From Streptomyces griseus (lineage in GTDB: Bacteria; Actinomycetota; Actinomycetes; Streptomycetales; Streptomycetaceae), in assembly GCF_900460065.1 (NCBI RefSeq), contig NZ_UAVD01000038.1, positions 62,001 through 126,000 of the forward strand: a stretch of 64,000 nt of DNA. Direction: 5' to 3'. Both the position numbers and the translations under genes were made by a program. Of this stretch, positions 9,691-47,861 are shown one piece after another. Within the stretch, counting starts at the first letter, position 1; every line of letters starts with the position of its first letter. The notes below the pieces were generated by a model. That model was not told where the DNA came from, ran no database searches, and worked only from the letters and a program-made list of their open reading frames with translations.

Positions 9691-9994
9691 GGTCCTCCCT
9701 TCGCTACGCGCCCACGATGCGGGCAGGGTCGGGTGAGGGCGCGCCGCGGCACAGCCCTTCCGGGCCCGACCAGAACTGTGCGGGGGCGCTTCCAATTCTC
9801 CCTGGCCCACCGGCAGGCGGCAACGAGCAATTACGGCGGCTGACGGGAATCAGCCGGAATGACACTGATATCCCTGCCCAAACCCGCCCGGGATGACTCC
9901 CTCCGTCACCTCCGAATCGCGAGGACCAGCAGAAACACCGTCGTCGCCGCGGGCGGATTCGCTGATTGTCGGTGCCATCGGGTTGCATGGAGGC
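9691..9994. other. Intergenic region between the hypothetical gene and recQ
   Basis: 304 bp between divergent genes, somewhat poorer in GC than its neighbours. It contains a small hairpin, GGCTGA-cggga-TCAGCC-like (about 9838-9855). An upstream in-frame extension of recQ exists (ATG at 9893) but has no family support. I see no recognisable operator. Confidence 0.4.
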
Positions 9995-12154
9995 ATGGAC
10001 ACCCTGGAGCTCCGCACCGAAGCCGACGCCATCCTCGCCGAGCTGGTCGGTGCGCCCGGGGGGTCGGCGCGGCTGCGCGAGGACCAGTGGCAGGCGGTGG
10101 CGGCCCTGGTGGAGGAGCGCCGTCGGGCGCTGGTGGTCCAGCGCACCGGGTGGGGGAAGTCCGCGGTGTACTTCGTGGCCACCGCGCTGCTGCGTCGGCG
10201 CGGAGCGGGCCCGACGGTGATCATCTCGCCGCTGCTGGCCTTGATGCGCAACCAGGTCGAGTCGGCGGCGCGTGCGGGCATCCGGGCGCGCACCATCAAC
10301 TCCGCCAACCCCGAGGAATGGGAAACGATCTACGGGGAGGTGGAGCGGGGCGAGACCGACGTTCTCCTGGTGAGCCCCGAGCGCCTCAATTCCGTGGATT
10401 TCCGTGATCAGGTGCTGCCGAGACTCGCGGCCACGACCGGCCTGCTGGTGGTCGACGAGGCGCACTGCATTTCCGACTGGGGGCACGACTTCCGGCCGGA
10501 CTACCGTCGGCTGCGCACGATGCTCGCCGAGCTGCCCGCGGGAGTGCCGGTGCTCGCCACCACCGCCACGGCGAACGCGCGGGTGACCGCGGACGTGGCG
10601 GAGCAACTGGGCACCGGGGGCGGGGACGCGTTGGTGCTGCGCGGACCGCTGGACCGCGAGAGCCTGCGGCTCGGCGTGCTGGAACTGCCGAACGCCGCGC
10701 ACCGGCTCGCCTGGCTCGGGGAGCGGCTGGGGGACCTGCCGGGCTCGGGGATCATCTACACGCTGACGGTGGCGGCGGCGGAGGAGGTCGCCGCGTTCCT
10801 GCGGCAGCGCGGCTATCCGGTGGCCTCGTACACGGGGAAGACGGAGAACGCCGACCGGTTGCAGGCGGAGGAGGACCTGCTGGCGAACCGGGTGAAGGCC
10901 CTGGTGGCGACGTCCGCGCTCGGGATGGGTTTCGACAAGCCGGACCTCGGCTTCGTGGTGCACCTCGGATCACCCTCGTCGCCGATCGCCTACTACCAGC
11001 AGGTGGGGCGTGCGGGGCGCGGCGTGGACCATGCCGATGTCCTGCTGCTCCCGGGCAAGGAGGACGAGGCGATCTGGGCGTACTTCGCTTCGGTGGGCTT
11101 CCCGCCCGAGGAGCAGGTGCGGCGCACCCTGGACGTGCTGGGACAGGCGGGCCGCCCGCTGTCGCTGCCGGCGCTGGAGCCGTTGGTGGACCTGCGGCGC
11201 TCGCGTCTGGAGACGATGCTGAAGGTCCTGGACGTGGACGGCGCCGTCCAGCGCGTGAAGGGCGGCTGGACCGCGACGGGACAGCCCTGGGTGTACGACG
11301 CCGAGCGCTACGCGTGGGTCGCGAAGCAGCGGGCGGCGGAACAGCAGGCGATGCGGGACTACGTGGCGACCACCGGGTGCCGCATGGAGTTCCTGCAACG
11401 GCAGCTCGACGACGAGAAGGCGGTGCCGTGCGGTCGCTGCGACACCTGCGCCGGTCCGTGGCTGGACCCGGCCGTCTCCTCCTCGGCCCTGTCGGCGGCG
11501 ACGGGTGAGCTGGACCGGCCGGGCGTCGAGGTCGAGCCCCGCAAGATGTGGCCGACGGGCCTGGCCTCGGTCGGCATGGACCTCAAGGGCCGCATCCCCG
11601 CGGGGCAGCAGGCGATGACGGGACGTGCGCTGGGGAGGCTGTCCGACATCGGCTGGGGCAACCGCCTGCGCCCGCTCCTGTCGGACCGGGCCGCGGACGG
11701 GCCGGTCCCGGACGACGTGCTGAACGCCGTGGTGACGGTGCTGGCGGACTGGGCCCGCTCGCCGGGCGGCTGGGCCGACGGATCTCCCGACGCGGTGGCG
11801 CGCCCCGTGGGCGTGGTCGTCGTGCCCTCACGCAGCCGCCCCCAGCTGGTCACCTCCCTGGCCGAGGGGGTGGCCCGGGTCGGGAGGCTGCCGCTCCTGG
11901 GCAGCCTGGCCCTCACCCCGTACGCAGACGAGCACGCCGCACACCGCAGCAACTCCGCCCAGCGGCTGCGCGCCCTGGCCGACTCGTTCACGGTGCCCGA
12001 CGCACTCGCCGCCGCGCTGGCCGAGACCCCTGGCCCGGTCCTGCTCGTCGACGACTCCACGGACTCGGGCTGGACCCTCGCCGTGAGCGCGCGCCTGCTC
12101 CGCCAGGCCGGCGCCGAGCAGGTGCTCCCGCTGGTCCTGGCCGTGGCGGGATAG
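9995..12154 (+). CDS. recQ: RecQ-family DNA helicase fused to a phosphoribosyltransferase-like domain
   Basis: 719-residue protein with two parts. Residues ~25-350 are a superfamily 2 helicase: Walker A QRTGWGKSAVYF (K55), DEAH box (154-157) in VVDEAHCISDWGHDFRPDYR, motif TTATAN, and motif VI QQVGRAGRG (about 335-343). A zinc-binding cysteine set follows (C-x18-C-x2-C-x2-C style, about 462-485), as in RecQ. The last ~170 residues differ from classical RecQ: no HRDC domain, instead a segment ending VLLVDDSTDSGWTLAVSARL (about 680-699), a PRPP-loop signature of ComF-type phosphoribosyltransferases. It should unwind recombination or stalled-fork DNA in the cytoplasm. ATG 9995 is chosen because GAPGGSARLREDQWQ aligns to family starts. 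A DnaA-box palindrome lies 232 bp downstream. Confidence 0.9.
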   Translation: MDTLELRTEADAILAELVGAPGGSARLREDQWQAVAALVEERRRALVVQRTGWGKSAVYFVATALLRRRGAGPTVIISPLLALMRNQVESAARAGIRARTINSANPEEWETIYGEVERGETDVLLVSPERLNSVDFRDQVLPRLAATTGLLVVDEAHCISDWGHDFRPDYRRLRTMLAELPAGVPVLATTATANARVTADVAEQLGTGGGDALVLRGPLDRESLRLGVLELPNAAHRLAWLGERLGDLPGSGIIYTLTVAAAEEVAAFLRQRGYPVASYTGKTENADRLQAEEDLLANRVKALVATSALGMGFDKPDLGFVVHLGSPSSPIAYYQQVGRAGRGVDHADVLLLPGKEDEAIWAYFASVGFPPEEQVRRTLDVLGQAGRPLSLPALEPLVDLRRSRLETMLKVLDVDGAVQRVKGGWTATGQPWVYDAERYAWVAKQRAAEQQAMRDYVATTGCRMEFLQRQLDDEKAVPCGRCDTCAGPWLDPAVSSSALSAATGELDRPGVEVEPRKMWPTGLASVGMDLKGRIPAGQQAMTGRALGRLSDIGWGNRLRPLLSDRAADGPVPDDVLNAVVTVLADWARSPGGWADGSPDAVARPVGVVVVPSRSRPQLVTSLAEGVARVGRLPLLGSLALTPYADEHAAHRSNSAQRLRALADSFTVPDALAAALAETPGPVLLVDDSTDSGWTLAVSARLLRQAGAEQVLPLVLAVAG

Positions 12155-12385
12155 CCGGAGCCCCCTGGGAAGCGGACCCGTCAGCCGCCGCCGTAGGCGG
12201 GAGCGGAACAGGCCGATCACCCGGCGGTTCCCGCTCCGGCTCCGGGGGCGACCTCGAAGTTCCGGATCCGGAGGCGAGCTCGAAAGGCGGAGGCCCGGGG
12301 CACGCCGACCTCCAGCGGCGAGCACGTCCGGGCGAGCGGTGGAACGGGACCGCGCACAGCACGGTAGTGAACCCGGAACGACAGG

Positions 12386-12423
12386 CGCGACCCCTGTGGA
12401 TAACGTTATCCACAGGGGTCGCG
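12386..12423. promoter_or_regulatory. 38-bp perfect palindrome containing two head-to-head DnaA boxes
   Basis: Every base from 12386 to 12423 is complementary to its mirror position (19-bp arms, centre between 12404 and 12405). The core reads TGTGGATAA-CG-TTATCCACA, two consensus DnaA boxes in inverted orientation 2 bp apart. It lies in the 299-bp gap between recQ and the DUF4192 gene, its edge 30 bp before the latter's start codon. It could bind DnaA, act as an operator, or form a hairpin in the leader of the DUF4192 mRNA. No U-tract follows. The rest of the gap (12155-12385) holds an imperfect inverted repeat around 12204-12240 and nothing else I recognise. Confidence 0.85.
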
Positions 12424-12453
12424 GGGCCGGGCGGACTGAGGGACCGTCAAGGC

Positions 12454-13830
12454 ATGAACAAGCACCACGAATCCACCGGCCCGGCCGCGGAGCAGCAGAT
12501 CACCCTGCGCGGCCCCGCCGAGCTCGCCGACGCCCTCCCGTATCTGATGGGCTTCTATCCCAACGACAGCGTCGTGATGGTCGCCCTGCACGGCGGCCGC
12601 GGCCGGTTCGGCGGCCGGCTCCGCCTCGGAATTCCCCAGGCGCCCGGCGAATGGGGCCCGGTCGCCGACCAGTTGGCGGACTGCCTGGTATCGGGGAGCG
12701 AGCGGCGCGAAGGCCGGCCCGACGCGATCGTGATCTTCCTCTGCCAGGACTCTCCGGACGGGTCCGGCGGCAGGCTCACGATGGAGCGCCTCAGGCCGTT
12801 CGCGCAACGCCTGCGCACCGCGTGCGGAGCACGCGACGTTCCCGTCCTCGAAGCGCTCTGCATCTCCGACGGCCGCTACTGGTCCTACTGCTGCCCCGAC
12901 CCCCGGTGCTGCCCCGACCAGGGAAATCCCCTGGCCATGCCCGGCACCACGGTGATGGCCGCGGCCGCCGCCTACGCGGGCGTCCATGTGCGGGGCACGC
13001 TGCGCGACATGGAGGCGCGGCTCCGGCCCTGGAGCGACCCGGCAGCCGCGACCGCGCAGGAGGAGGCCCTGGACAGGGCGGCGCCGGCGCTGATCCCGAG
13101 GCTCCTCGACGAGCGGGCCCGGGGGAAGGTCGCGGCGGAGACGCTCCGGCTGGCGCGCACGCTCATGGACCGCATCGAGGGGACACAGCCCGCGCCGCCC
13201 GCGCTCGCGGACGCCGGGGACGACCAGCTGATCGGTTCCGACGAGGCCGCCGCCGTCATCCTCGGGCTCCAGGACCGGGAGACCCGGGACAAGGCCGCCG
13301 CCTGGATGGAGGGGGCGGAAGCGCAAGCGGCCCTGCGGCTCTGGCGGACGCTGGCACGGCGGTGCGTCGGACCGTACGGGGAGCACGCCGCCGCTCCGCT
13401 CACCCTGGCGGGCTGGGTCTCCTGGTCCACGGGCGACGAGCCGGGCGCGCGGGTCGCCCTGACGCTGGCGCTGCGCGCCGATCCCGACTACACGTTCGCC
13501 CAGCTGCTGCACCGGGCCTGCAATGAGGGGCTCGACCCGGAGGCCCTGCGCCGTTGCCTGCGCGAGGCCGCGAACGGGGCGAGCCCCGACGCCCGGGCCG
13601 TGGAGGCGGTGGCGGGCACCGCCGCCGACCGGGGCGGCACATCGCCGCACGTCCGCAGGGCCCGCCCGCTGCCCGGCGGGGGCCGTCCGCGGGGGCGCTC
13701 CCACCGGCGCCCGGGTGCGGGGCGGGTGAGGCCGTCACCCGCTTCGGCCGGTCCCTGGAGCTCGGTGGCCGGGCGGCGGTCGCGCGAGGCCCGGCGGTAC
13801 GGGCGACGCGGCAGCAGGGCGCGGAGGTGA
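12454..13830 (+). CDS. DUF4192 domain-containing protein
   Basis: 458-residue cytoplasmic protein. The DUF4192 core spans about residues 10-370 and opens with the family pattern ITLRGPAELADALPYLMGFYPNDSVVMVAL; a Cys-rich patch (YCCPDPRCCPDQGNPLAMPGT) sits near 150-165 and a GWVSWSTGDEPGARVAL segment near 320. Function is unknown; the family is common in Actinobacteria. The last ~85 residues are an Arg/Pro/Gly-rich tail without recognisable structure, possibly the product of a downstream frame drift relative to shorter homologues. The start follows GAGGGACC with a suitable gap. It lies just downstream of the DnaA-box palindrome, which may regulate it. Confidence 0.8.
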   Translation: MNKHHESTGPAAEQQITLRGPAELADALPYLMGFYPNDSVVMVALHGGRGRFGGRLRLGIPQAPGEWGPVADQLADCLVSGSERREGRPDAIVIFLCQDSPDGSGGRLTMERLRPFAQRLRTACGARDVPVLEALCISDGRYWSYCCPDPRCCPDQGNPLAMPGTTVMAAAAAYAGVHVRGTLRDMEARLRPWSDPAAATAQEEALDRAAPALIPRLLDERARGKVAAETLRLARTLMDRIEGTQPAPPALADAGDDQLIGSDEAAAVILGLQDRETRDKAAAWMEGAEAQAALRLWRTLARRCVGPYGEHAAAPLTLAGWVSWSTGDEPGARVALTLALRADPDYTFAQLLHRACNEGLDPEALRRCLREAANGASPDARAVEAVAGTAADRGGTSPHVRRARPLPGGGRPRGRSHRRPGAGRVRPSPASAGPWSSVAGRRSREARRYGRRGSRARR

Positions 13831-47060: not shown

Positions 47061-47861
47061 TCAGGCCGACCCCTCCGCCGGTCCGCCCCCGGGGGCGGAC
47101 CGGATGACCGTGAACACGGCGCCCTCCGGGTCCGCGACCGTGGCCAGCCGGCCGCTCGACCCCTCGCGCGGCGGTTGCAGGACGCGCCCGCCCAGCTCCA
47201 CCACCCGGGCCGCCGCCCGGTCGGTGTCGGCGACCTCGAAGTACGTCATCCAGTGCGGCCCCCGGTCGCGCGGCAGCGCGTGGCCGACCCCGTGCAGCGC
47301 CGCCACCGCGACGCCGTCCAGGTGGAGTGTCTGGTAGTCGAAGTCGGCCGAGACGACCGCCTCCGTCTCATAGCCGAAGACGGTCTGGTAGAACTTCGCG
47401 ACCATCGACGTCTCCCGGGTCACCAGCTCGTTCCAGACCGGGGTGCCGGGCACCCCCGCCTTCATCGTGCCGATGTGCTCCGAGCCCTGCCAGATCCCGA
47501 ACACCGCACCGCCCGGGTCCGAGGCGATGGCGAGCCGCCCCGCCTCGCCGGCGTCCAGCGGCCCGACCGCCACCGTGCCGCCGCAGGAACGGACGGCCTC
47601 CGCGGTGGCGTCGGCGTCGTCCGTGGCGAGGTAGGTGGTCCAGGCGATCGGGAGATGGCGGTCGGGCGGCAGCTGGCCGATCCCCGCGACCTCCTCCCCG
47701 TGCAGCAGCCCGCGGACGTAGGGGCCCAGTTGGTCGGGGCCCGGCCGGAACTCCCAGTCGAACAGGGCTCCGTAGAACTCCTGGGTCGTGGTCAGGCCGT
47801 GCACGATCAGACTTACCCAGCAAGGTGTTCCGGGCGTGCGCCGGGCGTGGGCCTCGGTCAT
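47061..47861 (-). CDS. VOC family protein with two glyoxalase-type domains
   Basis: 266-residue protein made of two vicinal-oxygen-chelate domains (about 12-130 and 138-255). The first starts GTPCWVSLIVHGLTTTQEFYGALFDWEF and the second GTPVWNELVTRETSMVAKFYQTVFGYETE; metal-ligand candidates include His and Glu residues in WTTYLATDD, HWMTYFEVAD and GAVFTVIRS. Members include glyoxalases, bleomycin-resistance proteins and dioxygenases; the substrate cannot be inferred. The start has AGGAGAG 6 nt upstream. It is divergent from the rhodanese gene with a 233-bp promoter region. Confidence 0.88.
   Translation of the reverse strand: MTEAHARRTPGTPCWVSLIVHGLTTTQEFYGALFDWEFRPGPDQLGPYVRGLLHGEEVAGIGQLPPDRHLPIAWTTYLATDDADATAEAVRSCGGTVAVGPLDAGEAGRLAIASDPGGAVFGIWQGSEHIGTMKAGVPGTPVWNELVTRETSMVAKFYQTVFGYETEAVVSADFDYQTLHLDGVAVAALHGVGHALPRDRGPHWMTYFEVADTDRAAARVVELGGRVLQPPREGSSGRLATVADPEGAVFTVIRSAPGGGPAEGSA

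Follow-up and report, generated by a model that had tools for sequence, protein, structure and literature searches.

A perfect palindrome just ahead of a DUF4192 gene in Streptomyces griseus is, in our assessment, likely to be a DnaA operator at the promoter of that gene, which it would control directly and probably activate. The window, by which we mean the whole 64,000-nucleotide stretch that was analysed, carries at positions 12386-12423 an unbroken 38-bp palindrome (19+19 bp, no strand assigned) that emerged both from direct reading and from an arm search. It consists of a pair of exact TTATCCACA boxes, head-to-head with CG (2 bp) in between, and of 9-bp outer arms. The distal box lies on the minus strand at 12395..12403 (-59 to -51 from the ATG) and varies among other species, and the proximal box, the conserved element, lies on the plus strand at 12406..12414 (-48 to -40). 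The DUF4192 gene (12454..13830, plus strand, 458 aa, PF13830 E 1.4e-88) starts with an ATG at 12454, 30 bp past the palindrome end, and a RecQ-type helicase gene precedes the palindrome. A first-pass annotation had described the site in these terms, as a 38-bp perfect palindrome of two facing consensus boxes with a 2-bp gap, beside recQ and about 30 bp before a DUF4192 gene, and the letters bear out each point.

The pair, rather than the single box, makes the site exceptional. An arm of 19 is the longest of any perfect palindrome in the window (64 kb, 72.6% GC), with runners-up of 13 and 9, and across 20 dinucleotide shuffles of the window the longest arm per shuffle was 8-10 against the 19 observed. 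With up to 3 mismatches allowed, the 20-bp double box has a single occurrence in the 8.53-Mb genome and its control pattern has none. TTRTCCACA is found 40 times per 8.53 Mb of the same genome (17 TTATCCACA and 23 TTGTCCACA, counted by hand from the rows) and its reversed control pattern 22 times, so lone boxes are rare, as the first-pass annotation had said of consensus boxes, yet not far above chance. Because of this ratio and the uniqueness of the double box, a lone box is little proof whereas the pair is proof. A table in the review PMC4285127 bears out the earlier statement that most Streptomyces boxes are TTGTCCACA. A further long perfect palindrome, GC-rich, 26 bp long and with an arm of 13, lies at 47078-47103 of the window, beyond the shuffle maximum of 10 (n=20).

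Conservation within Streptomyces was assessed on 76 loci, 68 from 119 matching genomes (30 by best E-value and 38 hand-picked down the list, the window's own included) and 8 from a class-wide search; 8 of the 76 were left out before counting for want of an assignable DUF4192 start, and 11 of the 76 in the box-anchored profile. A DnaA-type box stands 48-50 bp before the DUF4192 start in all 68 Streptomyces loci whose start could be set. These proximal boxes are exact TTRTCCACA on either strand in 66 cases and carry one mismatch in 2, and four of the 68 are reversed in place. Together with the two exact TTATCCACA of the window, they give the site the consensus 9-mer match and the promoter-region box of conserved position by which DnaA-controlled promoters are recognized. 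The second box is 1-3 bp off in the compact form and tens of bp off elsewhere, sometimes in tandem; in some Streptomyces loci it was not found within the 130 bp searched.

Searching for the pair itself led back to the same gene. The double box (up to 2 mismatches) is present in 46 of 199 genomes and its reversed control in 2 of 199, and 25 of the 30 double-box loci fetched (L001-L030, the window's own included) are at DUF4192; the loci away from it (L009, L011, L013, L014 and L016) all carry 1-2 mismatches. An exact-pattern scan of the named genome collection gave at least 119 stretches, and among the 80 listed, 28 are from Streptomyces and 26 of these, by hand count, stand directly before DUF4192, all of which are lower bounds. 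In two Streptomyces stretches with the exact pattern (L169 and L171) the sequence ends about 80-110 bp beyond the site. The comparison with other Streptomyces that had been suggested in the first-pass annotation thus finds the boxes kept in relatives rather than lost.

DUF4192 (PF13830) is present in 251 of 296 genomes of the class and in 97 of 114 genera, and the box extends well beyond Streptomyces. For 40 outgroup loci, hand-picked for genus diversity among the rows listed of the class-wide PF13830 search, a box with at most one mismatch lies within 300 bp in 30, where shuffles expect 1.38, and an exact box in 9, where 0.04 are expected; the same upstream measurement at the control gene rnhB gave a box in 1 of 30. 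Without any prior motif, TCCACA was the most enriched 6-mer in these upstream stretches (36 of 40 outgroup loci vs 4.5 expected; it was not found within 300 bp in the other 4), and its extensions CTGTGGA and CTGTGGAC were the most enriched 7- and 8-mer. Within the same family, 21 loci from genera other than Streptomyces include 18 whose 300 bp upstream contain a box of no more than one mismatch, L380 having it only at -295, and 3 with none by this measure. A further 20 loci of the class, of which one family contributes 14, carry TCCACA on either strand within 300 bp in 16 cases. In 12 of these it is in forward orientation between -175 and -85 from the HMM start; in L116 it precedes an upstream ATG, in L103, L110 and L112 it occurs only at -222, and in 4 of the 20 it was not found within 300 bp. 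TCCCCA replaces TCCACA in six class loci (L103, L109, L110, L112, L113 and L117), and L122 has neither. Taken together, the comparisons indicate that a DnaA-type operator at this gene is old in the class.

The association is unlikely to extend to every DUF4192 gene, because the paralogues L099 and L100 and the plasmid-borne L392 have TCCACA on neither strand in the 300 bp upstream, a stretch that for L099 and L100 ends at the HMM match rather than at the start codon. A linear-replicon orthologue (L393) has one TCCACA 259 bp ahead of an assumed, unsure start, and DUF4192 was not found in the phage collection searched. In outgroup loci such as L153, L159, L164, L114, L378 and L381, where a second tandem box exists, the distance from it to the first, downstream one is often about 18 or 27-31 bp.

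We next placed the boxes relative to the promoter. Starts in 81 non-Streptomyces loci were set to the in-frame ATG nearest -51 from the HMM start, a rule that does not use the box and was chosen after the loci had been seen; 13 of the 81 had no start in range and were dropped, leaving 68. Box starts in these 68 loci cluster at -59 to -61 (35 occurrences) and at -49 (5). In the other genera the box spans -61 to -53, clear of the core promoter. An A-11/T-7 pair is present in 40 of the 68 and is shifted one base outward in 17, other spacings accounting for 5 or fewer each, and in Streptomyces A-11 and T-7 each occur in 59 of 65 box-anchored loci. In the window this conserved pair marks a putative -10 element of the form NAnnnT: GACCGT at 12442..12447 on the plus strand, its A being at -11 and its T at -7. 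It is visible only through locus comparison: a sigma-70 promoter scan of 12150-12560 returned 0 sites and no TTGACA-type promoter. Such spacing is that of the -10 signature of leaderless mRNAs, TANNNT about 12 bp ahead of the start (in a passage of PMC3160421), and leaderless mRNAs arise from about 21% of primary starts in S. coelicolor (in a passage of PMC4895711). SD-like cores are present in 12 of the 68 non-Streptomyces loci. We infer that the DUF4192 mRNA is leaderless and starts at the ATG at 12454; with the predicted start at the ATG, the boxes would lie outside the message, upstream of a weak core promoter.

The neighbouring recQ gene is not what holds the site in place. In 54 of the 68 Streptomyces loci the two genes diverge, in 8, the window's among them, they share a strand, and in 6 recQ was not seen. 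Since the boxes stay beside DUF4192 whichever way recQ points, the site belongs with DUF4192. The same-strand arrangement in the window (9893-12454), unlike that in 54 of the 68 loci, reflects a local recQ inversion or rearrangement. Within 9966-9997, recQ is preceded by TTGTCGGTG-N8-TTGCAT, which stops 6 bp short of an ATG at 9995, and for this reason the recQ ORF start listed at 9893 is probably too early. The element resembles the PafBC/RecA-NDp promoter motif, and it also stands ahead of divergent recQ in several further Streptomyces loci. That promoter motif is mentioned by name only in a passage of PMC6789036.

Perfect symmetry, on which the first-pass annotation had laid stress, turned out not to be the property that is conserved. 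Among 42 compact Streptomyces loci of distinct sequence, 35 have a 2-bp gap between the boxes, 6 a gap of 1 bp and the remaining one a gap of 3 bp; the distal box reads TGTGGATAA in 32 and TGTGGACAA in 10, never with a matching change opposite. A contiguous 8-9 bp mirror outside the boxes is found in 5 of the 42 (L024, L035, L040, L042 and L047), four of which are close together in the locus tree (74 loci, 110 columns), L024 being absent from it. With up to 2 mismatches allowed, 35 of the 42 retain the right arm GGGGTCGCG and 7 the left arm CGCGACCCC. Because the right arm is kept and the left arm and the symmetry are not, the selected units are the boxes and the promoter side, with the perfect mirror a local elaboration; the full 38-bp symmetry appears to be a derived and dispensable form, the palindrome occurring in part of Streptomyces. 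In the tree, the 6 reversed-box loci form one weakly supported group (56/76), and 5 changes are needed for the compact form. The tree's labels 'none' and 'single' cannot be trusted, since too little upstream sequence was searched where alignments began late, so our box counts for Streptomyces come from the per-locus, start-based survey and not from these labels. The variable gap and orientation among Streptomyces loci also led us to reject a single dimer operator.

The same comparisons bear on the proposal, made as one option in the first-pass annotation, that the palindrome is a hairpin in the 5' leader of the DUF4192 mRNA. The stretch does fold very well as RNA (-47.7 kcal/mol, z -6.3), a strength that follows from the mirror symmetry of the DNA. 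However, gaps vary, the second box flips or is not found, the distal-box changes in 10 of the 42 compact loci are uncompensated on the opposite side, and the predicted leaderless start is downstream of the site. We found no terminator-like site and no Rfam match at the palindrome, and on these grounds a hairpin, terminator or known RNA element was rejected; a leader hairpin has next to no chance of being correct. Of the three roles put forward in the first-pass annotation, control of the DUF4192 gene fares best, with DnaA-type boxes at a promoter and conserved there. DnaA would bind the two facing 9-mers just upstream of the -35 position, on roughly the same helix face given that their centres are 11 bp apart, and would activate the DUF4192 promoter, whose -10 element at 12442-12447 is predicted to start the mRNA at the DUF4192 ATG itself. 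Transcription of DUF4192 may thereby follow the level or nucleotide state of DnaA through the replication cycle, which suggests that the gene is tied to that cycle. If DnaA is the binder, we lean modestly towards activation over repression, judging by box position, as the site is upstream of the core promoter and not over it. The opposite sign at the same site is possible though rather unlikely: DnaA would repress DUF4192, and perhaps a divergent recQ, by bending the DNA or hindering RNA polymerase, and DUF4192 would be expressed once DnaA is titrated away. The Streptomyces proximal box ends at -40, adjoining the -35 region, and DnaA represses several promoters elsewhere, its own in S. lividans included (passages of PMC8203912 and PMC11317965), but the outgroup box is clear of the core promoter and no good -35 was found, a situation better suited to an activator.

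Whether DnaA is the protein that reads the box was approached through the box and its flanks. The box core is the DnaA 9-mer, TTGTCCACA is the high-affinity box of S. coelicolor and M. tuberculosis (per a passage of PMC4285127), and variation is concentrated in bases 1-3. YYV precedes TCCACA in 42 of 52 promoter boxes, 144 of 272 sites at dnaA loci and 33 of 67 at control loci, and mean flank log-odds are 0.34 for DUF4192 boxes, 0.43 for dnaA loci and -0.42 for the control, the latter two being the training sets. Exact TTRTCCACA is found in 8 of 52 outgroup promoter boxes vs 8 of 67 control TCCACA sites, and because the exact TTR is no commoner in the promoter boxes, the flank comparison gives moderate help and is not decisive for DnaA. 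The stretch after dnaA on contig C53 (a contig other than the window's), presumably oriC, also holds an inverted box pair, 5 bp apart (345130 and 345144). Many outgroup boxes deviate from TTRTCCACA, so a different TCCACA-reading protein is possible, and the site could be the operator of another, dedicated regulator reading (T/C)(T/C)NTCCACAG. In favour of such a regulator, 39 of 52 promoter boxes carry a trailing G at +1 and the first bases are loose, both more than the strict TTRTCCACA accounts for. We nevertheless consider it improbable, since the core is identical to the DnaA 9-mer, TCCACA sites at dnaA loci have a similar profile, trailing G included, and a box that can be reversed and variously paired does not look like a typical dimer operator. 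Quite improbable, too, is a site for handling DnaA in place of a promoter switch, either a titration site or a DARS-like element at which facing DnaA molecules exchange nucleotide. Two exact boxes stand together in a genome with so few TTRTCCACA, facing boxes are a DARS feature (per a passage of PMC5742627), and in S. coelicolor an off-origin DnaA-box cluster represses untimely initiation (Smulczyk-Krawczyszyn 2006, as cited in passages of PMC5742627 and PMC4585315, which place it close to oriC). The facing arrangement is not conserved, however, there are two boxes and not three, and timing or titration leaves unexplained why the distance to one gene is fixed.

A DnaA-controlled promoter, our preferred reading, is of a kind already known, here with an unusual inverted pair and a nearly unstudied target. 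The DnaA-controlled promoters of E. coli (nrdA, polA, purH and others, in a passage of PMC11317965) likewise lie off-origin and carry consensus boxes upstream of the gene, mostly as a close pair. Theirs are tandem and 2-3 bp apart, the form E. coli DnaA binds best according to the same passage, whereas the pair in the window shares the 2-bp gap but is facing, and its gap and orientation vary between species. The target here is moreover an uncharacterised actinomycete gene with a predicted leaderless mRNA. The E. coli elements DARS1 and DARS2 (in a passage of PMC5742627) are also off-origin and include two facing boxes, but a DARS core comprises three boxes with fixed spacing and with box I in the opposite orientation to boxes II and III, as against two boxes without conserved spacing at DUF4192. 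Thus, neither the tandem-pair nor the DARS model fits exactly. On C53, at 262-365 kb (L349-L352; dnaA domain 343.7 kb), several groups of two or three TTRTCCACA lie within about 80 kb of dnaA and may correspond to the known titration cluster near oriC.

Coupling of gene expression to replication initiation is poorly known in actinobacteria, and a limited literature search found no genome-wide DnaA-binding map of a Streptomyces announced in titles. With a DnaA-type site at a set distance in many genera, DUF4192 is a candidate for the core of the actinomycete DnaA regulon. The protein is nearly unstudied in the literature searched, where it is named as an Arthrobacter plasmid marker with DprA and ParB. 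Judging by gene order, its S. coelicolor counterpart is probably SCO5816, and we take Rv2712c to be the DUF4192 gene of M. tuberculosis. According to a passage of PMC6435705, a lineage-1 variant in the promoter, 103 bp ahead of Rv2712c, is associated with higher expression in that species.

In the full DUF4192 model (mean pLDDT 80.9) an alpha/beta domain at the N terminus is followed by a helical domain at the C terminus. When modelled alone (mean pLDDT 80.7), the N-domain aligned with RadC 2qlc at Z 10.4 (rmsd 2.8, 122 residues, next row Z 6.0) and by Foldseek at E 5.1e-5, so that its predicted fold resembles RadC/MPN. The JAMM metal motif consists of HxH and further residues. Of 36 aligned N-domains, one shows HxH within the first 150 residues and none has the form H[NS]H[PT], as judged from sequence only, and C147 and C153 are invariant in the same 36. 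The modelled C-domain resembles TPR proteins, a common arrangement that says nothing on function. Regulators such as Hda are not known from actinobacteria. DUF4192 might conceivably act in their place, as a replication-control factor that DnaA activates via the old promoter site and that feeds back on DnaA or the fork, a speculation to which we attach little probability.

Facing boxes also occur outside the actinomycetes' DUF4192 loci. In the cyanobacteria Microcoleus, Nostoc and Kamptonema (L186, L218 and L231) an ORF with a ParB HTH-like match, below the curated cut-off in L218, lies no more than about 110 bp from the same facing-box palindrome. Ten ORFs beside non-Streptomyces palindromes, from nine loci (L179, L198, L204, L202, L218, L186, L231, L192 and L196), gave Pfam matches for 3 of 10 proteins. 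Five Azospirillum genomes (L192, L196, L202, L227 and L232) carry an isolated facing pair of exact TTATCCACA, with no other TTRTCCACA found within 1 kb.
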